Positions 44,174 to 58,654 of a DNA stretch of 64,000 nt are shown in pieces. Numbering within the stretch: position 1 is the first letter of the stretch; each line of letters opens with the position of its first letter. Origin of the DNA: Raineyella fluvialis (GTDB taxonomy: Bacteria > Actinomycetota > Actinomycetes > Propionibacteriales > Propionibacteriaceae); contig NZ_CP045725.1 in the NCBI RefSeq assembly GCF_009646095.1, positions 1,364,001-1,428,000 of the forward strand, read 5' to 3'. A program made the position numbers and the translations under genes. Below the pieces are notes generated by a model that was not told the origin of the DNA, made no database searches, and was given only the letters and a program-made list of their open reading frames with translations.

Positions 44174-45238
44174 TCAGTCGGCGGAGTAGGGCGCGGGCCG
44201 CGGAACGGGCTTCGCGCTCACCCACTTCGAGATCGAGTAGCGCGATCGTACGGCGGCCAGGTCGATACCGAAGATGGTGCAGAAGATCGCCATCCGGACC
44301 ATCAGGCCGTTGTCGGTCTGGTGGAAGATCGCCAGCCCGGGCAGGTCGTCGACATCGGCCGACAGGTCGTACGAGCCGGGCCGCGAGTCGCGGGGGAGCG
44401 GGTGCATGATGACCAGGTCGGGGCGGCCGTGGTCGGTCACCATCTGACGGTTCAGCAGCACCGTGTTGGCGATCGCCTGCGACGTCGCCTCGTCCGTGAT
44501 CCGCTCCCGCTGGACGCGGGTGTTGTAGACGACGTCCGCGTCGGCGAGGGCCTCCGCCACGCTCGAGCAGACGGTCAGCCGATGCGCGTCTGCACGGTCG
44601 AAGTACTCCGCGGGCAGCTCGAGGCTGGGCGGGGAGTACAGCCGGAAGCGGACCCCGGGGTAGAGGCGCAGCAGGTCGATCAGGGAATGCACCGTGCGGC
44701 CGTACCTCAGGTCACCCATGATCGCGATGGTCGCGCCCTCGACCTGCTTGTCCCGGACGCCGAGCTCGCGCCGCAGCGTGTAGACGTCGAGGAGGGCCTG
44801 CGTCGGGTGCTCGCCGTCGCCGTCGCCGGCGTTGACCACGGGGACCAGGGAGGCGTCGGCGAACCGCGCGACGGAGCCCTTGTCGGGGTGGCGGATGACC
44901 ATCACGTCGCTGTAGCCGGAGATGACCCGCGAGGTGTCGTGGATGGACTCGCCCTTCGCCATGGAGGAGAAGGTGAAGCCGGTGGTGGTGAGGACGTGGC
45001 CGCCCAGGTGGGCGAACGCCGACTCGAACGACAGCCGGGTGCGGGTCGACGGTTCGAAGAACAGGCTGGAGAGGACCGCGCCGGAGAGGACGTCGCAGGC
45101 GAACTCTCCGCGTCCCAGGGGCCGCAGTCCGTCCGCGAGGTCGAACAGCCGCTCGACCGATTCGCGGCTGAACTGGGAGGTCGACAGGAGGTCAGAACCT
45201 TGCTGGAAAGGGGAGTCGCCGGCCGGTGTTGCACTCAT
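44174..45238 (-). CDS. Aspartate-carbamoyltransferase-like protein, orphan
   Basis: A 354-residue transcarbamylase close to catalytic PyrB. The carbamoyl-phosphate site has EPSTRTR (residues 62-68), KGES (95-98) and HPTQALLD (144-151). Aspartate-type residues are kept: GDLRYGRTVHSL with Arg181, TRVQRER (Arg241, Gln243) and HPLPRD (279-284). The C-terminus is about 40 residues longer than E. coli PyrB. It makes carbamoylaspartate in the known family, or works in reverse on a ureido compound. No other pyrimidine gene or PyrI partner is adjacent. It lies 185 bases downstream of the asparaginase in the ureide island. Confidence 0.85.
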   Translation of the reverse strand: MSATPAGDSPFQQGSDLLSTSQFSRESVERLFDLADGLRPLGRGEFACDVLSGAVLSSLFFEPSTRTRLSFESAFAHLGGHVLTTTGFTFSSMAKGESIHDTSRVISGYSDVMVIRHPDKGSVARFADASLVPVVNAGDGDGEHPTQALLDVYTLRRELGVRDKQVEGATIAIMGDLRYGRTVHSLIDLLRLYPGVRFRLYSPPSLELPAEYFDRADAHRLTVCSSVAEALADADVVYNTRVQRERITDEATSQAIANTVLLNRQMVTDHGRPDLVIMHPLPRDSRPGSYDLSADVDDLPGLAIFHQTDNGLMVRMAIFCTIFGIDLAAVRSRYSISKWVSAKPVPRPAPYSAD

Positions 45239-45423: not shown

Positions 45424-46421
45424 TCAGGGTCGTCCCCGCAGCGCGAACTGCTCCCGCCAGGTCTCGATCGGAGCGTCGCAGCTGACGAGCACCCAGGCCA
45501 GCAGCCGCGCCTGGGCGGCGTTGAGGCGTCCGGCCATCACCACGCCGCGCTCGATCAGGTCCATCTCGGCGCCGGGGTAGGCGTACGTCCTGGTCCCGGT
45601 ACGGCCACCGCGGGTCCGGCTCGCCATCACCACCGGCACCCGGGCCACCAACTCCGACACCACGTCGGCCGCGACCCCGGACACGTGACCGGCGCCGACC
45701 CCGTCGATGACCAGGGCCGCGGCGCCGGCGTCGACCACCGCGCGCAGACCGAAGCCCGAGTCGCCGATCCCGGCGCCGACGATGACCACCTCGCCACGGA
45801 CAGTCCCCGGCGTGAGGGGCGCCACCCGCGGCTGTACCGGCAGCCAGTCGATCTCCGGCTCACCCTCGGTGATCCGGCCGATCGGGCGGTAGTGCTGGGT
45901 GTCGAAGGCGTCGACCGCGAAGGTGTGGCCCTTGCGGACCCGGTCGCCGCGGAACACCTGGTCGTTCATCACGACCAACGAGCCCAGCCCCCGGGTGCGG
46001 GGGCCAGCGCCACGGAGATGGCCGCGCGCAGGTTGGCGGGCCCCTCGGCGCCCGGCTCCTCGGGGCTGCGCATCGCCCCGGTGAAGACCAGGGGCGCCTC
46101 CCGGTCCCAGAGCAGGTCGGCGAGATAGGCGGACTCCTCGATGGTGTCCGTGCCGTGCGTCATGACCACGCCGCGCGCGCCGGCGTCCACCTGCTGGCGG
46201 GCCCATGCGAGGCCGTTCAGCACGTCGTCGATGTGGACGGAGGGTGACCCGACGTTCGCGACCTCCTCGGTGACGAAGCGTACGGACGCCGTCAGGTCCG
46301 CGACCGAGGCGATCAGGTCATTGGCACCGAACTCCGGCAGCACCCCCACGTCGTCCCCGGTCGCCGCCATCGCGATCGTGCCGCCGAAGGACGCCACCGC
46401 CACCAGGGGACGCTCAGTCAT
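45424..46421 (-). CDS. L-asparaginase (internal frame break)
   Basis: About 332 residues after repair. The N-terminus has the catalytic threonine motif ASFGGTIAM and the second motif MTHGTDTIEESAYLADLL, then FTGAMRSPEEPGAEGPANLRAAIS. The C-terminal domain (LVVMNDQVFRGDRVRKGHTFAVDAFDT, IVGAGIGDSGFGLRAVVDAG) follows in another frame. One base added at the C run at 45988-45992 joins them. The start overlaps the glycerate kinase stop (ATGA), so it belongs to the ureide operon. It would release ammonia from asparagine; a ureide or amide of the pathway as substrate is possible but unsupported. Confidence 0.83.
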
Positions 46422-47539
46422 AACCACTCCTCCACAACATCGGTGAGGCGCTGCCGCAACAGATCGGCGGCATCGCGGATAGAGATGGCCGGATCGGGCT
46501 CCAGGTCGGTGAGGGGATAGACCCCACCCAGCCCGATGCCCTCGGCCTGGGCCGGCGTCAGCAACGACCGCCCGCACACGGCGACGACCGGTACGCCGGC
46601 CCGGCCGGCTTCGGCCGCGACGCCGGCGACGGCCTTGCCGCTGAGGGTCTGCTCGTCCAGTGAGCCCTCACCGGTGATCACCAGCGCCGCGTCGGCCAAG
46701 GCGTCGGCGAAGCCGGCCACCTCGAGCACCAGTTCGATCCCGGGGCGCATGGCGGCGCCGAGGAAGGCCAGGGCGGCGATGCCCACGCCGCCGGCGGCGC
46801 CGGCGCCGGGACTGGAGCGCAGGTCCTGGCCCGTTGTACGGGCGACGACGTCGGCCCAGTGCTCCAGGCCGGCTTCGACACGCGGGGCGAGCTCGGCATC
46901 GACACCTTTCTGGGGGCCGAAGACGGCGACGGTCCCCCGCGGGCCGAGCAACGGATTGTCGACATCGCAGGCCAGGGTCACCCGGGTCGTGGCCAGAGCG
47001 GCCGGGAGGCCGGACAGGTCGATGCTGTCGATCTCGGCCAGGAGCTCGGCGCCGGGCGCCACCGGGTTCCCCTGGCTGTCCCGCAGGACGGCCCCGAGCC
47101 CGACCATCAGGCCGGTTCCCCCGTCGGTCGACGCCGATCCGCCGATGCCGATGATCACCTCGGCGGGTTCGAGTTCCAGTGCGGCGCGCAGCACCTGGCC
47201 CAGCCCCTTGCTGGAGGCGGTCAGCGGGGCGAGGTCGGGTGTGGGCAGCCGCAGCAGCCCGCAGGCATCGGCCATCTCCACCACCGCGACGCCGTCGCGC
47301 AGCAGGAACGACGTCCGGACCGGCTCGCCCGTCGGCCCGTCGACGGTGACCGGATGGGAGTCGAAGCCGGCGAGCCGCAGGGCGGTCAACGTGCCGTCCC
47401 CACCATCGGCGACCAGGTAGGCGCTGACGGGGCGGCCCGTCGCCCCCTTGACGGTGGTGGTGATGATCTCGGTCACCTGCCGGGCGTCCAACGAACCCTT
47501 GAACTTGTCACACGCCACGATCACCCGTGAACGAGACAT
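46418..47539 (-). CDS. glxK: Glycerate 2-kinase
   Basis: A 373-residue GlxK/GarK-type glycerate kinase: VIVACDKFKGSLDARQVTEII, LVADGGDGTLTAL, IIGIGGSASTDGGTGLMVGLGA, VFGPQKGVD, ALVITGEGSLDEQTLSGKAVAGVA. It phosphorylates D-glycerate, the last step feeding glyoxylate carbon into glycolysis. The ATG at 47539 is chosen because AAGAGG precedes it at 5 bases. It follows the hydroxypyruvate isomerase by about 10 bases and is coupled to the asparaginase. Confidence 0.94.
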   Translation of the reverse strand: MSRSRVIVACDKFKGSLDARQVTEIITTTVKGATGRPVSAYLVADGGDGTLTALRLAGFDSHPVTVDGPTGEPVRTSFLLRDGVAVVEMADACGLLRLPTPDLAPLTASSKGLGQVLRAALELEPAEVIIGIGGSASTDGGTGLMVGLGAVLRDSQGNPVAPGAELLAEIDSIDLSGLPAALATTRVTLACDVDNPLLGPRGTVAVFGPQKGVDAELAPRVEAGLEHWADVVARTTGQDLRSSPGAGAAGGVGIAALAFLGAAMRPGIELVLEVAGFADALADAALVITGEGSLDEQTLSGKAVAGVAAEAGRAGVPVVAVCGRSLLTPAQAEGIGLGGVYPLTDLEPDPAISIRDAADLLRQRLTDVVEEWL

Positions 47540-47549
47540 TGCCACCTCT

Positions 47550-48346
47550 TCAGATCAGATCCGGTAACGCGCCGAACGACTCGGCGGTCGGCACGGTGGG
47601 CTTGTATTCCAGCCCGACCCAGCCGTCGTAGCCCGCGGCGCGCAGGTCGGCCAGCCACGCGGCCAAGGGTAGTGTTCCGCTGCCCGGCTCGCCCCGACCG
47701 GGGAAGTCAGCGATCTGGCAGTGACCGGCGGTGGCGCCTTCCTCCCGTACGGCCCGCGGGACATCCTGCCCGTTGGCGGCCAGGTGATACAGGTCGAGCA
47801 GCAGCCGTACGTTACTCGCCCCCGCGCCTGCACCGCGCCGATCACGCTGTCGGCGTCCGTCGCCGACTTGAGCGGGTACGCCTCGGCGCCCGAGACGGGC
47901 TCGACCAGCACGATGCCGTCGACCTCCGCCGCGGCGCGGGCGGCGAACAGCAGGTTCTCCACCGCCAGGGCGTCGGCCTGGGCGGGGTCCTGCCCGGGCT
48001 GGCGGTTGCCGTACAGGGCGTTGAACGCGCGGCAGCCGGTCGCGCGGGCGATCTCAAGGGCCACCGGCACGTTCGCCCGGAACTCGTCCTCCCGGCCGAT
48101 CCAGGACACCACGCCGCGGTCCCCTCCGGGCATGTCGCCGGCGAAGAAATTGAGGCCGATGAGCGCGACGTCCGCATCCTTGATCGCTGCCACGAAGGCA
48201 GCGACCTCGGATGCGGACGGCACCGCCGTGCTCCATGGCCACCAGAACTCCACCGCGTCGAAGCCGGCTGCCTTGGCAGCGGCCGGCCTCTCCAGCAACG
48301 GCAGCTCGGTGAACATGATCGAGCAGTTGACGGCGTACTTCATCAT
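47550..48346 (-). CDS. hyi: Hydroxypyruvate isomerase (internal frame break)
   Basis: About 265 residues after repair. N-terminal part: YAVNCSIMFTELPLLERP, GFDAVEFWWPW, LNFFAGDMPGGDRG, EFRANVPVALEIARATGCRAFNALYGNR, LVEPVSGAEAYPL. Adding one base at the run at 47819-47823 continues it as ASNVRLLLDLYHLAANGQD, AGHCQIADFPGRGEPGSG and a last metal-ligand Glu in VGLEYKP, ending at 47550. It interconverts hydroxypyruvate and tartronate semialdehyde. It sits between gcl and glxK, the usual arrangement of glyoxylate assimilation operons. Confidence 0.9.
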
Positions 48347-48358
48347 TTGCCGATCATG

Positions 48359-50149
48359 TCAGTCCTGCGTCTGCGGGTCCATCATGATGATCGCGGTCGG
48401 AGCGTCCTCGGGGCTGGCGGCCAGCACCTCGAACTCGGTCATGTTGGCCAGGCTGGAGCCCATCGAGACGTTGGTGACGCGCTCCAGGACGCACTCCACC
48501 ACGACCGGCACCCGCAGCTCCATCGACAGGCGCCGGGCCTCGCACATGGCGGGGACCAGGTCCTCCGGCTGGCGGACGCGGATCGCCTTGCAGCCGAGCG
48601 CCTCGGCGACACCGACGAAGTCGACGCCGTAGCCCTCCGTCTCGGGGACGTTGATGTTGTCGAAGGACAGCTGGACCTGGTAGTCCATGTCGAAGGCGCG
48701 CTGGGACTGGCGGATCAGGCCCAGGTAGGCGTTGTTCACCAGCACGTGCACGTACGGCAGGTTGAACTGCGCGGCGGTGGCGAGCTCCTCGATCAGGAAC
48801 TGGAAGTCGTAGTCACCGGACAGGGCGACCACCGGGGTCTCCGGGTCGGCCACCACGGCACCCAGGGCGGCGGGCATCGTCCAGCCCAGCGGACCGGCTT
48901 GGCCGGCGTTGATCCAGTTACGCGGCTTGTAGACGTGCAGCATCTGGGACGCCTGGATCTGCGACAGGCCGATCGTGGTGACGTAGCGGGTGTCCTTGCC
49001 GAAGGCCTGGTTCATCGCCTCGTACACGCGCTGCGGCTTGAGCGGGACGTTGTCGAAGTGGGTCCGGCGCTGCATCGAGCCCTTGCGCTGGTCGCAGTCC
49101 TTGACCCAGACCTCGAAGTCGGGGATCTCGCCCTTCGCCTGGAAGCGCTTCGCCGAGGCCAGCAGGGCGTCCAGCGCGAGGCCGGCATCGGACGTGACGC
49201 CGAAGTCCGGCGGGAACACCCGGCCGAGCTGGGTCGGCTCGATGTCGATGTGGACGAACTTGCGACCCTCGCGGAAGACGGTGAGGTCACCGGTCATCCG
49301 GTTGGCCCAGCGGTTGCCGATGCCGATCACCAAGTCGGATTCCAGCATCGTGGCGTTGGAGTAGCGCAGGGAGGTCTGGATGCCGGCCATGCCGTGGGCG
49401 AGGCGGTGGTCGTCGGGGATGACGCCCCAGCCCATCAGGGTGGAGATCACCGGGACGTTGAGCAGCTCCGCGAGCTCCACCAGCTTGTCGGCGGCGTCGG
49501 CGTTGATGATGCCGCCACCGGCCAGCAGGATGGGGTGCTGCGAGGCGGCGATCATGCCCATCACCGTGTCGGCCTGGTACTCGTTCATCGCCGGCTTGGC
49601 GATCGGCAGCGGCTCGTACGCGTCGATGTCGAACTCGATCTCCTGCAGCTGCACGTCGATCGGGAGGTCGATCAGCACCGGGCCCGGACGTCCGGAACGC
49701 ATCAGCTCGAACGCGCGCTGGAAGACGCCGGGGACCTGGGCCCCCTCCAGCACGGTCTTGGCCATCTTCGTCACCGGCTTGGCGATCGCCGGGATGTCGA
49801 AGCCCTGGAAGTCCTCCTTGTCGAGCTTGGCGACGGGGGCCTGGCCGGTGATGCAGAGGATCGGGATGGAGTCGGCGGTGGCCGAGTACAGGCCGGTGAT
49901 CATGTCGGTGCCGGCCGGTCCCGACGTGCCGAGGCAGACACCGATGTTGCCGGCCTTCGCCCGGGTGTATCCCTCGGCCATGTGGGAGGCGGCCTCGACG
50001 TGACGGGCCAGGATGTGGTCGATCTTGCCGAAGTCCTTCAGTGCCGAGTACAGGGGATTGATCGCCGCGCCGGGCACTCCGAACGCCTTGGTCACCCCCT
50101 CCTTGGCGAGGATGAGGACGGCGGCGTCCACCGCACGCATGCGAGTCAT
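48359..50149 (-). CDS. gcl: Glyoxylate carboligase (tartronate-semialdehyde synthase)
   Basis: A 596-residue ThDP enzyme: [51 protein letters not shown], and the ThDP motif region [22 protein letters not shown] ending [15 protein letters not shown]. In RHVEAASHM a Val occupies the site where most ThDP enzymes have the activating Glu, diagnostic of Gcl. It condenses two glyoxylates to tartronate semialdehyde and CO2. It lies between the reductase and the isomerase, 29 and 12 bases away. Confidence 0.96.
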
Positions 50150-50178: not shown

Positions 50179-51066
50179 TCAGTTGTTGTCGTCGAGGCGG
50201 CCGGAGAGTCGCTCGATGGTGCGCAGGAGGGCGGAGTGGTCGAGACCGCCGTCGCCGTTGGCGCGGGCGGAGGCGATGAGTTGGGCGACGACGGAGCCGA
50301 GCGGGATGACGACGCCGGCCTCGCGGGCGGCGGAGGTCACGATGCCCATGTCCTTGTGGTGCAGGTCGATGCGGAAGCCGGGCTTGAAGTCGCGGGCCAG
50401 CATGCTCTCACCCTTGATGTCGAGGATGCGGCTGCCGGCCAGGCCACCCGCGAGCACCTTGATCGCCGCCTGGGTGTCGACGCCGAAGGCCTCGAGGAAC
50501 ACGATGGCCTCGGCCACCAGTCCGTACGTGCCGCCGACGATCAACTGGTTCGCGGCCTTCACCGTCTGCCCGGAGCCCGACGGGCCGAGGTGGACCACCG
50601 TCTTGCCCATCACCTCCAGCAGCGGTCGGGCCTGCTCGAAGTCGGCCGGCTCGCCGCCGACCATGATGGAGAGGGTCCCGTCGATGGCGCCCTTCTCGCC
50701 ACCGGACACCGGGGCGTCCAGGGGCCGGACCCCGACCTCTCGGCACGCCGCGGCGACCTGCTGCGACACGTCGGGACGGATGGAGCTCATGTCGATGTAG
50801 AGGAGGCCGTCAGCGGCGTTCTCCAGCAGGCCGCCCTCGCCGAGCACGACATCCTGCACGTGCGGCGAGTCGGGGACCATGGTGATGAAGACATCCACAC
50901 CGTCGCAGGCCTCGGCGATGCTGCCGGCGCCGCGGCCGCCCATCTCCTCGAGCTTCGCTACGGCGGCCTGGTGATGGTCGTAGCCGACCACCTCGTGACC
51001 GGCGGCGAGCACGTTCTTCATCATGGGCAGGCCCATGATGCCCAGCCCGACAATTCCAACCTTCAC
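50179..51066 (-). CDS. glxR: Tartronate semialdehyde reductase
   Basis: A 295-residue beta-hydroxyacid dehydrogenase: NAD(P) fold [17 protein letters not shown], substrate motif [23 protein letters not shown], catalytic-lysine region [16 protein letters not shown], and [16 protein letters not shown]. It reduces tartronate semialdehyde to D-glycerate for the kinase downstream. It is preceded by a 14-bp hairpin that separates it from the DUF3830 gene. Confidence 0.95.
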
Positions 51067-51138: not shown

Positions 51139-51558
51139 TCAGAGAGCGCGGAACTCGAGGTCCTGCGCGCCCTCCCAGAGCATCTTCCGCCCGAGCTCCT
51201 TGAGGTTCTCCTTGCCCTCGACGATCGTGGCGAAGTGGTTACCAGCGAGCTGGCCGGTCACCGCGTGGAATGCCGTGTGACCGTAGGGGAAGAGCACCTC
51301 CGCCTCGGACTCGCCACCACCGTAGATGAGCAGCTCGCCCGCGGCCGGGTAGGAGGTGTTGACGGCCCACTCGACCTCGACGCCCAGGTCCTTGTCGCCG
51401 AAGGGGATCCAGCCGGACTGGCCGGACCAGCGAGCCTGGATGACCTGGGTCTTCATGCCCAGCAGGTGCTCCTTGAAGGCCGCAACGGTCTTCGGGGCAT
51501 CCGGGTTGTACACGCACTTGAAGGTGAATCCACCGGCGATGATTTCGAAGTCAGCCAT
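51139..51558 (-). CDS. DUF3830 family protein (cyclophilin-like fold)
   Basis: A 139-residue protein matching the DUF3830 pattern: FEIIAGGFTFKCVYNPDAPKTVAAFKEHL, IQARWSGQSGWIPFGD, GELLIYGGGESEAEVLFPYGHTAFHA, NHFATIVEGKENLKELGRKMLWEGA. The family has a cyclophilin-like beta barrel and no settled activity, but is often found near hydantoinase, amidohydrolase and transporter genes. Here it lies directly after the divergent transcarbamylase, so a role in binding or opening a ureide ring is a reasonable guess. The conserved GHTAFH histidines could be functional. Confidence 0.82.
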   Translation of the reverse strand: MADFEIIAGGFTFKCVYNPDAPKTVAAFKEHLLGMKTQVIQARWSGQSGWIPFGDKDLGVEVEWAVNTSYPAAGELLIYGGGESEAEVLFPYGHTAFHAVTGQLAGNHFATIVEGKENLKELGRKMLWEGAQDLEFRAL

Positions 51559-51615: not shown

Positions 51616-52644
51616 TCAGCCGAGGATGGAGGCGAGCAGAGCCATCCGGATCGACACGGAGTGCAGGATCGCCTCGAAGGCGAGCTGGTTCGGGGTGTCG
51701 TCGATGGCCAGGTCCATCTCGCCGGCACGGCGGGGGAGGGTGTGGGTCACGTAGATCATGTGGCCCTTCTCGCGAGCAGCGTCCAGGGTCGCGTGGTCGA
51801 CGAAGTAGTCGTCCATGCTCTTCTTGAACTGCTCGGCGTTCTCGCCGGCGACCGCGGAGCAACCCGGCAGGTAGACCTCGTCCTTGTCCGAGATGAACTC
51901 GTTGAAGGACTTGCGGTTGAAGTCGAACACCTCTTCGATCTTGGCGTTCGGGTAGCTGGAACGGATGTTCTCGATGACCTCGGAGGGCACGCGGCGAGCC
52001 TTCGGGGAGGCGATGGTGACCTCGGCGCCCAGACGGGCGAGGCCCTGGGCCATGGAGTGACCGGTGCGGGCCTCGATCATGTCGGTGGAGGCGACGGTCA
52101 CCTTGAGGCCGTCGATGTGGCCGAACTTGCGGTACAGGGTGTACAGGTCGAGCAGGGCCTGGGTCGGGTGCTCCCAGTGGCCCCAGCCACCGTTGATCAG
52201 CGGGGTGTCGCCGACGTACTTCGCGGCCTCGCGGGCCTCGACGTCGTTCGGGTGACGGAGCACCAGGACGTTCGAGTACTGCGCCACGCAGCGGATCATG
52301 TCGTTGAGGGACTCCTCCTTGGCGATCGAGGAGGTCGTCTTCGGGCTGTTCTCGACGATCACGTTGCCACCGAGGCGGAGCATGGCCGTCTGGAAGCTCA
52401 TCCGGGTGCGGGTCGAGGGCTGGAAGAACAGCAGCGTCTCGACGGCGCCCGGGAACAGGTCGAAGCGGTCGCGGTTCATCAGCTCGAGCTTCTTGGCGAG
52501 CTCGAACAGCGCGAGGAGCTGGTCGTTCGTCATCGAGTTGATCGAGATGAAGCTCTGGCCGGCGAAGTCGACCTCGTTGATCGCGGCCTTGATGGACTGC
52601 ATGGGCCGGGCGGCGACGGGGGTCTGGGTGGTCAGTACGGACAT
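51616..52644 (-). CDS. Divergent ATCase-fold transcarbamylase of unknown substrate
   Basis: A 342-residue transcarbamylase. The carbamoyl-phosphate half is intact: QPSTRTRMSF (residues 75-84), AKEES (108-112), HPTQALLDLYT (159-169), and TDMIEARTGHS with Arg193. The second-substrate half is not aspartate-like: the TRVQ motif of ATCase is replaced by YLPGCSAVAGEN near 258-269, and HPLPR by HTLPRRAGEMD (301-311). It is therefore neither PyrB nor ArgF. It lies between allantoinase and DUF3830 genes, and a carbamate kinase is in the sister operon. I infer phosphorolysis of a ureido acid such as allantoate. Oxalurate (oxamate transcarbamylase) is the main alternative. Confidence 0.82.
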   Translation of the reverse strand: MSVLTTQTPVAARPMQSIKAAINEVDFAGQSFISINSMTNDQLLALFELAKKLELMNRDRFDLFPGAVETLLFFQPSTRTRMSFQTAMLRLGGNVIVENSPKTTSSIAKEESLNDMIRCVAQYSNVLVLRHPNDVEAREAAKYVGDTPLINGGWGHWEHPTQALLDLYTLYRKFGHIDGLKVTVASTDMIEARTGHSMAQGLARLGAEVTIASPKARRVPSEVIENIRSSYPNAKIEEVFDFNRKSFNEFISDKDEVYLPGCSAVAGENAEQFKKSMDDYFVDHATLDAAREKGHMIYVTHTLPRRAGEMDLAIDDTPNQLAFEAILHSVSIRMALLASILG

Positions 52645-52736: not shown

Positions 52737-54089
52737 TCAGGCCTGGACGAGATCGCGGCCACGCACGAGCTCGCGGCCCCGGCGGCGGCCCTCCAGGTCG
52801 ATCGGCTCGCCGGCCAGCCAGGTGGCGCGGACGACACCGGTGAGGGTGCGGCCGTCGTACGGGGACACCTTGTTCTTGTGGAACAGGGCCTCCTTGTCGA
52901 CGATGAACTCGTCGTCGGGGGCAACGATCGCCAGGTCCGCGCGGGCGCCGATGGCGAGTCGGCCCTTGCCGGCGATCCCTACGACGTCCGCCGGGTTCGA
53001 ACCCATCCAGCGGACCACGTCCGACAGCGAGTGGCCCAGCTGGCGGGCCTGGGTCCAGACGGCCGGGAGGCCGAGCTGTACGGAGGAGATGCCGCCCCAG
53101 GCGGTGCCGAAGTCACCGGTGTCCAGGCTCTTGAGGTCAGCGGTGGACGGGGAGTGGTCGGAGGCGATGAAGTCGATCGTGCCGTCGGCCAGTCCACGCC
53201 ACAGCTCCATCCGGTTCGCGTGGTCGCGCAGCGGCGGGCAGCACTTGAACTGGGTCGCGCCGTCGGGGACCTCCTCGGCGTCGAAGGTCAGGTAGTGCGG
53301 GCAGGTCTCGACCGTGATCGGGAGGCCCTCGGCCTTGGCGGCCTTGATCAGCGGCAGTGCGCTGGCCGAGGCCAGGTGCAGGATGTGCGTCCGGCAGCCG
53401 GTCTCCCGTACGGCCTCGATGACCGTCGCGATGGCGGCGTCCTCAGCACTGGCCGGGTGGGAGCGCATGAAGGCCATGAAGTCGCGGCCGTTGGTGTGGG
53501 GAGCCTGGTCGAGGGTGCCGGCGTCCTCCGCGTGGGCGATGAGCAGACCGCCGAACGTGGCGATCTCGACCATGGCGGCCCGGAGCTCCTCCTGGTTGAG
53601 GTAGGGGTACTCCTCCAGTCCGGAGTCACCCAGGAAGCACTTGAAGCCGAAGACTCCTTCGTTCCACAGGGGCTCGAGGTCGTCCACGTTGCCGGGGATC
53701 GCCCCGCCCCAGAAGCCGACGTCCATCATCAGCTGGTCCTTGGCGACCTCGCGCTTGAGCTCGAGGTTGGCGACGGAAGTCGTCGCGGGCTTGGAGTTCA
53801 GGGGCATGTCGACCAGCGTCGTGATGCCGCCCGCTGCGGCCGCCTTGGTGACCGAGGCGAAACCTTCCCATTCGGTGCGGCCGGGCTCGTTCACGTGCAC
53901 ATGCGCGTCGATCAGTCCGGGCAGCAGGACCTCGTCGTCGGCCAGGACGGTCACGTCGGTGCAGTCGTACGGCTCGTCATAGGCGCCGATCGCGGCGATC
54001 GTCTCGCCGGCGATGGCGATGGAGACCGCCGCCTCGCCCTCGGGCAGTACCGCCCGGCGAGCCCGGACGACCTTGGTAATGCTTGTCAT
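52737..54089 (-). CDS. allB: Allantoinase
   Basis: A 450-residue amidohydrolase closely matching AllB: metal HxH in LIDAHVHVNEPGRTEWEGF, GGITTLVDMPLNSKPAT, carboxylated-lysine region FGFKCFLGDSG, LLIAHAEDAG, THILHLASASALP, TVETCPHYLTFDAEEV, KCCPPLRDHANR, DFIASDHSPSTAD and GGISSVQLGLPAVW, ending KVSPYDGRTLTG. It opens allantoin to allantoate. The ATG at 54089 is preferred to an upstream GTG. It heads the large minus-strand operon and is divergent from IclR copy 2. Hydantoinase is an alternative, but AllB landmarks dominate. Confidence 0.92.
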   Translation of the reverse strand: MTSITKVVRARRAVLPEGEAAVSIAIAGETIAAIGAYDEPYDCTDVTVLADDEVLLPGLIDAHVHVNEPGRTEWEGFASVTKAAAAGGITTLVDMPLNSKPATTSVANLELKREVAKDQLMMDVGFWGGAIPGNVDDLEPLWNEGVFGFKCFLGDSGLEEYPYLNQEELRAAMVEIATFGGLLIAHAEDAGTLDQAPHTNGRDFMAFMRSHPASAEDAAIATVIEAVRETGCRTHILHLASASALPLIKAAKAEGLPITVETCPHYLTFDAEEVPDGATQFKCCPPLRDHANRMELWRGLADGTIDFIASDHSPSTADLKSLDTGDFGTAWGGISSVQLGLPAVWTQARQLGHSLSDVVRWMGSNPADVVGIAGKGRLAIGARADLAIVAPDDEFIVDKEALFHKNKVSPYDGRTLTGVVRATWLAGEPIDLEGRRRGRELVRGRDLVQA

Positions 54090-54171
54090 TTCCTTGTTTC
54101 CTCTCACCCACTGCGTTGTGGATCGAGCTTCAGGACATCTCCCGCGTCGACATCCCTACGCTAACACAATT

Positions 54172-54196: not shown

Positions 54197-54340
54197 ACAG
54201 GCGGATACTCACCAGTGCTGAGCATCACCCCATAGGCGGGTGTGCATCACCCGCTAGGCTCGGATCGACACCCCTGCTGCTGGACGCCTCGCGCCTCGCG
54301 GCGGACGGGACACGGCAGCACCCTGGAAAGGGGACGAGGT

Positions 54341-55117
54341 ATGGCGGAAGCCAAGAGCGACGGCTCGGTCCAGGCGGTCACCCGTGCCTTCCGGATCCTT
54401 GAGGCCATCGCCGCGGTGGAGCACCCGATGGGGATCACCGAGATCGCGGAGGCCTGCGACCTGCCGTTGCCGACCACGCACCGGATCCTGAACACGTTGC
54501 TGGCCACCGGTTACGTGTTCAAGACACCCCGGCGTACGTACGGGCTCGGCGCCCGGCTGATCCCGCTGTCCCGCTATGCCGGTGGCGCGCTCGGGGTGGC
54601 CCTGCGGCCCCTGCTGGCCGAGTTCACCGCGAAGGTCCAGGAATCTGCCTCGGTCGCGATCCTCGACCAGGACTTCGCCCGCTACATCGCCCATGTCCCG
54701 TCGGAACAACCGATGCGCCTGTTCACCGAGGTCGGCAACCGGGTCGAGCTCTATGCCTCCGGTGTGGGCAAGGCCATCCTGAGCCAGGGCTCGGACGCCG
54801 AAGCCCGCGCCAGCCTTGAGCGCACCGGGATGCGGCGCTTCACCTCGACCACGGTGACGGATCCCGATGAGTTGGTCGAGCAGTTGCAGTTGATCCGCGA
54901 GCTCGGCTACGCCCTCGATGAGGGTGAGCACGACCTCGGCGTCCGCTGCGTGGCCGTGCCGCTCGGCCAGGACCTGCGCATCGCCGTGTCGGCCTCCGGT
55001 CCCCCGAGCCGGGTGACCGACGAGATGGTGGTCAACGTGCTGGTCCCCGAGCTGACCGAGCTGGCGAAGCGGCTGGGAGAGGCGATCGTGAAGGGTGCCG
55101 CCGGTAACGGTCGCTGA
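54341..55117 (+). CDS. IclR family regulator (copy 2)
   Basis: A 258-residue IclR protein: N-terminal helix-turn-helix SVQAVTRAFRILEAIAAVEHPMG, then CDLPLPTTHRILNTLLATGY; effector domain RYIAHVPSEQPMRLFTEVGN, ASGVGKAILSQ, GVRCVAVPLGQDLRIAVSASG. It is closely similar to copy 1 at 35478. It is divergent from allB and convergent with NCS1 permease 2, so it is the likely local regulator of allantoin use. The ATG at 54341 follows AAAGGGGACGAGGT. Confidence 0.92.
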   Translation: MAEAKSDGSVQAVTRAFRILEAIAAVEHPMGITEIAEACDLPLPTTHRILNTLLATGYVFKTPRRTYGLGARLIPLSRYAGGALGVALRPLLAEFTAKVQESASVAILDQDFARYIAHVPSEQPMRLFTEVGNRVELYASGVGKAILSQGSDAEARASLERTGMRRFTSTTVTDPDELVEQLQLIRELGYALDEGEHDLGVRCVAVPLGQDLRIAVSASGPPSRVTDEMVVNVLVPELTELAKRLGEAIVKGAAGNGR

Positions 55118-55165: not shown

Positions 55166-56704
55166 TCAGCGGTACTGGCCCGCGTTGGCGCTGGCCTGGG
55201 TGAGGTTCTCGTGGTCGTCCAGCGAGTACCCCTCCTCGACCTGGATGGCCATCCGCACCGAGTCGGCGATCGACGTGTCGTGGCGCGAGATCAGGTAGTG
55301 CGCCGCGAACGCCAGGGCCGCGCCGATGAACCAGGAGAACGGGGCCAGGACCGCGAAGGCGGGCACCAGGGCCACGATGATCGTGGGGATCGAGGTGATC
55401 AGGAAGGAGACGATCGCCTTGCGGTTCCAGCCCTTGGTGTAGGTGTAGTAGCCCTGGTCGCGGAACAGGTCGCCGAGGACCACCCGCTGCTTACGCAGGA
55501 CGTAGTAGTCGGCCATGATGATGCCGAACAGCGGGCCGAGCATGGCGCCGACGGCACCGAGGAAGATGTTGACCACGATGGGGTTGTTGAACAGGTTCCA
55601 GGGGGTCATCACCAGGGCGATGACGGCGGAGATCAGGCCGCCGCGCTTGAAGTCGATCTTGCTCGGCCACATGTTGGCCAGGTCGTACGCCGGGGAGACG
55701 AAGTTGGCCACGACGTTGATGCCCAGGGTGGCGATGGCGAAGGTCAGGGCGCCGAGGATCAGGACGAAGACGTTGTCGATGCGGCCGACCAGTTCGACCG
55801 GGTCGTAGATGTGCTCACCGTAGACGGCGAACGAACCGGCGGTCACGATCACGGACAGGATCGAGAAGGCGATGAAGTTGACCGGCAGGCCCCAGAAGTT
55901 GGCCTTGAAGACCGACTTCTTCGTGGGAGCGAACCGGGAGAAGTCGCAGAAGTTGAGCATCAGGGTGGAGAAGTAGGCCACCGTCAGCGCGATCGCCGCG
56001 AAGAAGGCGTGCGTCATGCCCCACTTCGGGGTGGCGCCCGGGAGGGTCAGCGAGATGTGGCCGCCGGCCTGCACGATGATGTAGATCGCCAGCATGATCA
56101 TCACGACCCAGACGGCCGGACCGGCCCAGTCCTGGAACTTGCGGATCGTCTCCATGCCGTTGCGCAGGAGCAGCAGCTGCAGGGCCCACATCGTGACGAA
56201 CGCGATCCAGCCGAGCGTCGACTCACCCAGGATGTTGTTGTGGGTCAGGGCGCCGAGGCCGGGGAAGACCTTGACGCTGAGGATGATGACCGCACGCGAG
56301 GCCAGCCAGGTCTGGATGCCGTACCAGGCGATGGCGACCAGCGCCCGGATCAGGGCCGGAACGTTGGAGCCCAGCGTTCCGAAGGAGATCCGCGCCAGGA
56401 CCGGGTAAGGGATGCCGTACTTCTGACCGGCCCAGCCGGACAGGTTCATCAGCAGGAAGACGAGGGCGATGCCGATCACCAGGCTGCCGAACACCCAGGT
56501 GGCTCCCAGGCCGAGAGCGAAGAGGCCGGCGGCGAAGGTATAGCCACCGATGGAGTGGATGTCCGACATCCACATCGCGAACAGCGAGTACGTACCCCAC
56601 TTGCGTGCGTGGGCGGGACGGAGGTCCTCGTTGATCAGGCGCGGCGAGACCCCGGGGATCTCGATCTGGTCAGTGATGCCGACGTTGGCATCGATGCTGG
56701 TCAT
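55166..56704 (-). CDS. NCS1 family permease 2 (probable allantoin permease)
   Basis: A 512-residue NCS1 symporter with about 12 helices: FAMWMSDIHSIGGYTFAAGLF in helix 1, YGIPYPVLARISFGTLGSNVP, AIAWYGIQTWLASRAV, LMLNFCDFSRFAPTKKSV, VMTPWNLFNNP. It lies in one operon with carbamate kinase and the racemase-like gene, next to allantoinase, so it is the better candidate of the two NCS1 proteins for allantoin uptake. A repeat-bearing C-rich leader precedes it. Confidence 0.9.
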   Translation of the reverse strand: MTSIDANVGITDQIEIPGVSPRLINEDLRPAHARKWGTYSLFAMWMSDIHSIGGYTFAAGLFALGLGATWVFGSLVIGIALVFLLMNLSGWAGQKYGIPYPVLARISFGTLGSNVPALIRALVAIAWYGIQTWLASRAVIILSVKVFPGLGALTHNNILGESTLGWIAFVTMWALQLLLLRNGMETIRKFQDWAGPAVWVVMIMLAIYIIVQAGGHISLTLPGATPKWGMTHAFFAAIALTVAYFSTLMLNFCDFSRFAPTKKSVFKANFWGLPVNFIAFSILSVIVTAGSFAVYGEHIYDPVELVGRIDNVFVLILGALTFAIATLGINVVANFVSPAYDLANMWPSKIDFKRGGLISAVIALVMTPWNLFNNPIVVNIFLGAVGAMLGPLFGIIMADYYVLRKQRVVLGDLFRDQGYYTYTKGWNRKAIVSFLITSIPTIIVALVPAFAVLAPFSWFIGAALAFAAHYLISRHDTSIADSVRMAIQVEEGYSLDDHENLTQASANAGQYR

Positions 56705-56779: not shown

Positions 56780-57727
56780 TCAGGCCGTGATCGTGGTGCC
56801 GGCTTCGCCCTTCAGCGCCGCTGCCATCAGCGGAGGCGAGGTGATGATGACGCGGCGGCCGCCACGCTCGAGGAACGCGATCGCCGCCTCGATCTTGGGG
56901 GCCATGGAGCCCGCGCCGAACTGGCCCGCGGCCAGGTACTCCTTGACCTCGTCGACGCAGACGTTGCCGAGCCACTTCTCGTCGGGGGTGTTGAAGTTGA
57001 TCGCCACGGCGTCGACCGCCGTCGAGATCAGCAGGGTGCCCGCATCCAGCTGGTTGGCCAGCATCGAGGCGCCGAAGTCCTTGTCGATGACGGCTTCGAT
57101 GCCGGTGAAGCCCTCGCCGTCCTCGACCACCGGGATGCCGCCGCCGCCGGCGGCGATGACGGTGAAGCCGTTCTCCACCAGCGTACGGATCGCCTCGACC
57201 TCGGCGATACGGACCGGCTTGGGGGAAGCCACCACGCGGCGCCAGCCACGGCCGGCATCCTCGACGACGTCCCAGCCGAGCTCGGCCTCGCGGCGCTTGG
57301 CCTCGTCCTCGTCCATGAACGAACCGATCGGCTTGGTCGGCTTCTGGAACGCGGGGTCCTTGGCGTCGACCACGGTCCGGGTGACGAGGGCGACGATCTG
57401 CTTGTCGACGCCGATCTTGGCGAACTCGTGGCCCAGCGCGTTGCCGAACATGTAGCCGGTGGCTCCCTGGGTGTCGGCGCCAAGGCCGTCGAGCGGGATG
57501 GGCGGCAGTTCCGCGGAGGCCAGTTCGACCCGGCGGAGCAGGAACCCGACCTGGGGGCCGTTGCCGTGGGTGACGATGACCGACCAACCGTCGGCGACCA
57601 TCTGTGCCACGTGCTTCATGGCCTCCGAGGCGGCCGCGTACTGGTCCTGCAGGGAGATGTGGGTCTTGTCGGTGATCAGGGCGTTGCCGCCGACGGCGAC
57701 GACGACTGTGCGGTTGATGTCTTCCAT
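56780..57727 (-). CDS. arcC: Carbamate kinase
   Basis: A 315-residue carbamate kinase: VVAVGGNALITD, VTHGNGPQVGFLLRR, GATGYMFGNAL, VIAAGGGGIPVVEDG, VIDKDFGASMLANQL, LLISTAVDAVAINF and QFGAGSMAPKIEAAIAFLE. It uses carbamoyl phosphate and ADP to make ATP, CO2 and ammonia. No arginine deiminase or ornithine carbamoyltransferase is nearby. It sits in the ureide island with two ATCase-fold proteins, which implies that carbamoyl phosphate arises from ureides. Confidence 0.95.
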   Translation of the reverse strand: MEDINRTVVVAVGGNALITDKTHISLQDQYAAASEAMKHVAQMVADGWSVIVTHGNGPQVGFLLRRVELASAELPPIPLDGLGADTQGATGYMFGNALGHEFAKIGVDKQIVALVTRTVVDAKDPAFQKPTKPIGSFMDEDEAKRREAELGWDVVEDAGRGWRRVVASPKPVRIAEVEAIRTLVENGFTVIAAGGGGIPVVEDGEGFTGIEAVIDKDFGASMLANQLDAGTLLISTAVDAVAINFNTPDEKWLGNVCVDEVKEYLAAGQFGAGSMAPKIEAAIAFLERGGRRVIITSPPLMAAALKGEAGTTITA

Positions 57728-57764: not shown

Positions 57765-58499
57765 TCAGCGCTGCAGCAGTCGGTGCAGCGGCCAGTTCAC
57801 GACGGTCTTGGGGCGCGGAGGCGCGTAGGTGCGGACCTTGCTGGTCTTCAGTCCGAGGTTGACCAGGGACTCGGCCAACTTCACGGCGGCCGCCACGCCG
57901 TCGACGGTGGGGGCGCCGGTGGCCTCGCGGACGGCGGCGTCCAGGCCGGCCATCCCGCCGCAGCCGAGGACGAGGACTTCGGCACCGTCCTCCTTGATGG
58001 CCCGGACGGCTTGGTCGGTGATGGCGGCGAGGACAACGTCCTGGTCGCCCTCGAGTTCGAGGACGCCCAGCCCGCTGGCTCGTACGGAGGCGCAGTGGTC
58101 GGCGACGCCACCGAGCATCAGCCGCTCCTCGATCAGAGGTACGGCGCGATCGAGCGTGGTCACCACGGAGTAGCGGTAACCGAGCAGGCAGGCCAGGTGG
58201 GCGGCGGCATCGGTGATGTCGACGACGGGGACCTCGAGGACCTCCTTGAGTCCTTCCTGGCCGTGTTCGCCGAAACCGGCCTGGACCACGGCGTCGTACG
58301 GCTCGTCGTAGGCCAGGACCCGATCGAGGACGCCGATGGCGGCCAGGTAGCTCTCGAAGTTGCCTTCGACGGAGTCGGCACCGATGAACGGGGTCAGGCC
58401 GACGATCTCGGTCCCGGGGGCGGCGACCGCCCTCGCTTGTGCCGCGATCGACTCGGTCATCGACTCCGTCGTGTTCACATTGACGACCAGGATTCTCAT
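57765..58499 (-). CDS. Asp/Glu/hydantoin racemase superfamily protein
   Basis: A 244-residue protein of the family that includes allantoin and hydantoin racemases: ILVVNVNTTESMTESI, PVVDITDAAAHLACLLG, and the second-cysteine motif VLVLGCGGMAG with Cys180. The first catalytic cysteine, expected in an ACFGDPG-type motif, is Gly75 here (QAGFGEHGQEG). True two-base racemases need both; arylmalonate decarboxylase has the same Gly/Cys pattern. It heads the operon with carbamate kinase and the permease. It could racemise allantoin by a different mechanism, or act as a decarboxylase or isomerase. The ATG at 58499 is preferred. Confidence 0.82.
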   Translation of the reverse strand: MRILVVNVNTTESMTESIAAQARAVAAPGTEIVGLTPFIGADSVEGNFESYLAAIGVLDRVLAYDEPYDAVVQAGFGEHGQEGLKEVLEVPVVDITDAAAHLACLLGYRYSVVTTLDRAVPLIEERLMLGGVADHCASVRASGLGVLELEGDQDVVLAAITDQAVRAIKEDGAEVLVLGCGGMAGLDAAVREATGAPTVDGVAAAVKLAESLVNLGLKTSKVRTYAPPRPKTVVNWPLHRLLQR

Positions 58500-58654
58500 C
58501 GGATGCCTCCACCGCACTGAGTCGTCAGCGCGACACAGCCGCGACCGCTCACGGGGAGCGTGCGGGAAAGGATGAGAGAGCGGCCCTCGGGGCTGTGGGG
58601 GACAACGTTGTCCTTTCGTCCGGCGGGTCGAGCTCCTGGTGAAGATTCACGATG

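Follow-up and report, generated by a model that had tools for sequence, protein, structure and literature searches.

The system closest to the locus described here is the purine-degrading gene cluster of Rubrobacter xylanophilus, whose protein Rxyl_2847 was expressed in the study that described the "pseudo-ATCases" and converted allantoate to ureidoglycine and carbamoyl phosphate only in the presence of arsenate or phosphate (Barba et al., 2013; PMC4016543). Table 1 of that paper presents the combination of H[ST]LP with GX[SC] as one pseudo-ATCase group, and H(T/S)LP was later given as the signature of the ureidoglycine carbamoyltransferases (UGTCases), with the Thr at position 298 in R. xylanophilus numbering (Shi et al., 2015; PMC4581275). 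The assayed basis of the entire UGTCase family is this one member, Rxyl_2847. Because Table 1 and the text of Barba et al. seem to number the groups differently, the Rubrobacter sequence was checked directly. The UGTCase of locus L039 (genome G041) contains HTLP with Thr at 298 and LPGCS at 254, and the gene order of the locus (permease, OHCU decarboxylase, deaminase, uricase, HIU hydrolase, allantoinase, Rxyl_2846, UGTCase, carbamate kinase, asparaginase, regulator) is that of Table 2 of the same paper; L039 is equated with Rxyl_2847 by this order and by T298, not by the record name.

In the window, i.e., the whole stretch of 64,000 nucleotides from Raineyella fluvialis that was analyzed, the gene in question lies on the minus strand at positions 51616..52644 (start codon ATG at 52644, stop ending at 51616) and codes for a protein of 342 amino acids which, as judged from its sequence, is very probably a UGTCase acting in the catabolic direction. 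Both OTCace Pfam domains (OTCace_N and OTCace, 135 and 51 bits) are matched, so the resemblance to transcarbamylases is not due to chance. In a maximum-likelihood tree, the protein falls inside a 26-member UGTCase clade that includes Rxyl_2847 of L039 (support 100/100) and lies on the ATCase side of the tree, distant from ArgI and YgeW. The identity to the L039 UGTCase is 61% by search and 59% over the alignment, compared with 30% to PyrB from Escherichia coli and 21% each to ArgI and YgeW. The features shared with the family further comprise HTLP as a case of the H[ST]LP that replaces HPLP, G261-C262-S263 as a case of the GX[SC] that replaces RXQ, and allantoinase and carbamate kinase genes as neighbors. 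The protein should be regarded as a new member of an already characterized family, the family itself not being new.

Curated models leave the protein without a name. It scores 206.5 bits with the ATCase model TIGR00670 (cut-off 236.95, rounded to 237), 103 bits with the OTCase model TIGR00658 (cut-off 281), 76.7 bits with the putrescine carbamoyltransferase model TIGR04384 (cut-off 500), 47.4 bits with the N-acetylornithine carbamoyltransferase (AOTCase) model (cut-off 288) and 39.7 bits with the YgeW model (cut-off 453); NCBIfam names neither this UGTCase nor that of L039, both of which stay below the ATCase cut-off. Such values below every cut-off speak for the proposal of an earlier, sequence-only reading that the gene represents a novel transcarbamylase family with an unrecognized acceptor, but the grouping with the assayed UGTCase at 100/100 and the shared published H(T/S)LP signature render this highly improbable. 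In the tree, the protein clusters inside a characterized transcarbamylase family with a known acceptor, the very outcome that the reading had named as speaking against its own proposal. Its claim of a separate family tied to allantoinase and DUF3830 holds with respect to the distinct clade and the genomic association (for DUF3830, in Actinomycetota), but the family is that of the known UGTCases. An acceptor other than aspartate or ornithine, as also proposed there, is supported at the sequence level, and so is a clade of its own outside the ATCases, OTCases and YgeW.

The motif statements of the same reading proved correct. STRT (residues 77-80, within the reported STRTR), K-E-E-S (109-112) and HPTQ (159-162) are intact, and an alignment with E. 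coli PyrB indicates that the phosphate-site residues S52, T53, R54, T55, S80, R105, H134, and Q137 are all retained. LPGCS starts at residue 259 in the place of the TRVQ of ATCases, and HTLPR (301-305, with T302 as the Thr) takes the place of HPLP(R), the G-x-S and HTLP columns being invariant in the 27 relatives; the OTCase (ArgF) signatures HCLP and DxxxSMG are absent from the sequence. In the same alignment, R167 of PyrB is retained as R193, while the 240s-loop pair R229/Q231 is changed to G261/S263, P266 to T302 and E50 to Q75, and the R234 column contains Ala or Lys across the UGTCases. The retained R167 and the changes at R229, Q231, P266, and E50 are invariant in all UGTCase relatives possessing those columns (26-27 sequences; one of the 27 relative rows is a fragment without the N-terminal columns), and the altered acceptor site is therefore a conserved feature rather than an error of this genome. 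A structure of the UGTCase predicted with AlphaFold from a seven-row alignment reached a mean pLDDT of only 57.6, which was too weak to use.

In ATCases, Arg229 and Gln231 grip the second carboxylate of aspartate, and E50 and R234 form a pair. Ureidoglycine has the amine and carboxylate at the alpha-carbon in common with aspartate and contains a neutral ureido group instead of CH2-COO-, a difference which predicts the retention of R167 and the loss of R229 and Q231. That E50 and R234 are lost together would fit a remodeled loop. A genuine aspartate carbamoyltransferase, i.e., an anabolic PyrB whose loops are unusual, might still be considered, since the closest solved structures and the best NCBIfam model are ATCases and automatic annotation would probably label the gene ATCase-like; yet the score of 206.5 bits lies below the cut-off of 237, the equivalents of R229 and Q231 are missing from all relatives, and a canonical ATCase is encoded in the same genome only 6.4 kb away, which leaves this interpretation with hardly any probability. 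That canonical gene (44174..45238, minus strand) retains TRVQRER and HPLPR, reaches 286.7 bits with TIGR00670 (cut-off 237) and serves as an internal control, being the only other ATCase-like gene among the three transcarbamylase genes of the genome (UGTCase, canonical ATCase and an ornithine-type gene). It is located at the end of the allantoin cluster, forms a long branch in the tree and finds its best model in the ATCase entry PRK11891, with 460 bits and thus below the cut-off of 560.

For the UGTCase, we infer the activity, the residue roles, the in vivo direction and the step that follows ureidoglycine along the lines below. The most likely reaction on sequence grounds would be allantoate + Pi -> ureidoglycine + carbamoyl phosphate, with carbamoyl phosphate or phosphate held by the conserved STRT/HPTQ site and the carboxylate of allantoate bound by R193. 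The 240s-loop residues G261-C262-S263, together with T302 of HTLP, may accommodate the neutral ureido group of allantoate and form hydrogen bonds to it. The carbamate kinase encoded in the cluster would then use carbamoyl phosphate and ADP to form ATP and carbamate, which would yield ammonia, and ureidoglycine would be processed onward to glyoxylate and, via glyoxylate carboligase (GCL), tartronate semialdehyde reductase (TSR), hydroxypyruvate isomerase (HYI) and glycerate kinase, to glycerate phosphate. Phosphorolysis of allantoate would thus save energy in purine breakdown.

The genes surrounding the UGTCase gene are in accordance with such a pathway. Upstream of it on the minus strand are found an allantoinase gene (52737..54107; TIGR03178, 558 bits, cut-off 358) for the conversion of allantoin to allantoate, a gene for an NCS1 permease, probably an allantoin importer (55166..56704; PF02133, 316 bits; 294 bits with the allantoin permease model NF008476, which is below its cut-off), the carbamate kinase gene (56780..57727; TIGR00746, 383 bits, cut-off 358) and a gene of the Asp/Glu/hydantoin racemase family (57765..58517; PF01177, 158.6 bits), whose product is probably an allantoin racemase as judged from the context. 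An IclR-type regulator (54242..55117, plus strand; PF01614 and PF09339) is encoded divergently from the allantoinase. Downstream, likewise on the minus strand, lie the genes for TSR (50179..51066; TIGR01505, 372 bits, cut-off 341), GCL (48359..50149; TIGR01504, 1048 bits, cut-off 711), an HYI-like protein (47555..48346), a glycerate kinase-like protein (46418..47545), assigned by position and homology within conserved clusters, and a member of the asparaginase family as in the Rubrobacter cluster (45424..46577; its 3' part matches PF00710 and PF17763). Compared with intact relatives, the HYI-like gene contains one frame shift near 47822-47831, with TIGR03234 matching residues 2-172 only, and the asparaginase gene one near 46008; homologues of both align across two frames. 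This may reflect partial decay of the pathway in the strain or assembly errors. Neither uricase nor HIU hydrolase was found among the open reading frames examined in the cluster, and because the NCS1 permease and the racemase are present instead, the pathway probably starts from imported allantoin.

A different acceptor within the same pathway, i.e., oxamate (phosphorolysis of oxalurate) or another ureido acid used in a lineage whose enzyme has diverged from that of Rubrobacter, is unlikely. An allantoin cluster with a carbamate kinase would suit an oxamate transcarbamylase equally, and sequence cannot prove specificity, but the substrate-site columns tested are identical to those of the assayed Rubrobacter enzyme except for the variable positions of R234 and Y165, no ureidoglycolate dehydrogenase is seen in the window cluster, which contains glyoxylate-using genes instead, and the known oxamate transcarbamylase AllFGH is a system composed of three proteins (PMC11326118).

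The assignment as UGTCase is further in line with the gene content of related clusters. In Rubrobacter-like and related genomes lacking UGTCase, clusters of matching layout bear an allantoate amidohydrolase instead, as exemplified by locus L091 with the order uricase, HIU hydrolase, AllC-like protein, allantoinase, DUF3830, IclR, HYI, TSR, GCL. The AllC-like proteins of four loci (L094, L100, L103, and L106) were tested and all score above the curated cut-off of NF006775, and none of the clusters compared contains both enzymes, a replacement pattern expected if UGTCase performs the allantoate-cleaving step. The AllC-type enzyme likewise yields ureidoglycine, but it is an unrelated M20 metallohydrolase which catalyzes hydrolysis and saves no carbamoyl phosphate. 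The clusters would thus represent a natural gene-for-gene swap between energy-saving phosphorolysis by UGTCase plus carbamate kinase and simple hydrolysis by allantoate amidohydrolase.

Next to the UGTCase gene, positions 51139..51558 (minus strand) encode a DUF3830 protein of 139 amino acids (PF12903, 70.8 bits, cut-off 26) with a cyclophilin-like fold, which appears to be a candidate for a ureidoglycine-processing enzyme, as judged from neighbor patterns, fold and conservation. Its counterpart Rxyl_2846, entered as unknown in 2013 (PMC4016543), also is a DUF3830 member, and the purine-linked branch of DUF3830 stays in the clusters whether UGTCase or AllC makes ureidoglycine; three loci (L097, L098, and L102) have DUF3830 with neither of the two nearby. 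Twenty of the 23 UGTCase genomes contain DUF3830 and lack the bicupin ureidoglycine aminohydrolase, whereas the remaining three, all from Chloroflexota, show the reverse, with the aminohydrolase gene of G396 located about 4 kb from that of UGTCase. It is this complementary distribution that makes DUF3830 a candidate for ureidoglycine processing, although the contrast lies between two phyla, is partly confounded by phylum and may go back to a single historical event. In a sample of 396 genomes of Actinomycetota, the aminohydrolase occurs in only three, one of which has a DUF3830 from outside the purine branch, and the exclusion observed there is therefore uninformative by itself. Ureidoglycolate lyase (PF04115) is present in none of the 23 UGTCase genomes and occurs in one genome, G152, whose DUF3830 is purine-linked.

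The AlphaFold model of the DUF3830 protein (pLDDT 77.5) matches structure 3kop with a Z score of 17.7 (rmsd 2.3 over 135 residues) and the bacterial Pictet-Spenglerases KslB and McbB with Z scores of 14-15.7, compared with about 12 for ordinary cyclophilins. Pictet-Spenglerases handle imines, and these modeled fold relationships are suggestive for a substrate able to lose ammonia via an imine, a shared fold being no proof of function. Among the 42 purine-linked members, the DUF3830 protein of the window diverges most and has Gln at residue 41, where the 41 others as well as 15 other DUF3830 proteins have His. No literature was found on DUF3830 or on a ureidoglycine aminohydrolase with a cyclophilin fold. 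We tentatively propose, while considering it somewhat more doubtful than probable, that the purine-branch DUF3830 proteins are an unrecognized enzyme acting on ureidoglycine (to ureidoglycolate and ammonia, or onward to glyoxylate and urea) or on ureidoglycolate. If true, they would take the place of the bicupin aminohydrolase in Actinomycetota, and perhaps that of ureidoglycolate lyase as well, using the cyclophilin-like fold common to the imine-handling Pictet-Spenglerases. Alternatively, spontaneous decay may be the only fate of ureidoglycine. A role of DUF3830 as allantoin racemase was ruled out, as the clusters of the window and of Actinomyces contain a separate racemase-family gene.

The UGTCase family is considerably broader than the handful of species in which it was originally reported, with members in Actinomycetaceae (Trueperella and Actinomyces among them), a Bifidobacteriaceae MAG and Chloroflexota. 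In the Actinomyces clusters, DUF3830 and TSR are separated by inserted genes for a split transketolase and for a TIM-barrel protein resembling xylose isomerase (L006:9501-12248). In one locus from Chloroflexota (L012:11488-15763), the genes for UGTCase, carbamate kinase and allantoinase are followed by those for an M20 peptidase, ureidoglycine aminohydrolase, a protein resembling ketol-acid reductoisomerase and another transcarbamylase, which is AOTCase-like but, with 254 bits, does not reach the cut-off of 288, extra genes which possibly constitute an alternative oxalurate/oxamate branch. Another locus (L055:1471-3700) contains two adjoining transcarbamylase genes, the first type being a further pseudo-ATCase with HSLP and the other a protein that groups with YgeW; this pairing recalls the arrangement described for Nocardioides in PMC4016543. 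The puzzle of the acceptor that had been flagged for the window gene thus resolves to a known but under-annotated enzyme, UGTCase, and leaves DUF3830 as a sharply defined candidate for the missing ureidoglycine step.

Compared with the Rxyl_2847 cluster, the window shares the STRT, HPTQ, GCS, and HTLP columns as well as the neighboring genes for allantoinase, DUF3830, carbamate kinase, the asparaginase family, IclR and the conversion of glyoxylate to glycerate, but differs in gene order, in the presence of the NCS1 permease and the racemase, and in the frameshifted HYI and asparaginase genes. With the catalytic chain of PyrB, the UGTCase has in common the fold, the carbamoyl-phosphate site and the equivalent of R167 for the alpha-carboxylate, whereas the RxQxER motif of the 240s loop and HPLP are lacking, E50 is replaced by Gln and R234 by Ala or Lys. 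The purine-catabolism-linked YgeW, a knotted carbamoyltransferase, belongs to the same superfamily and a similar metabolic setting, but differs from the window protein, as indicated by an identity of 21%, a score of 39.7 bits where the cut-off is 453, and its location in a separate region of the tree.
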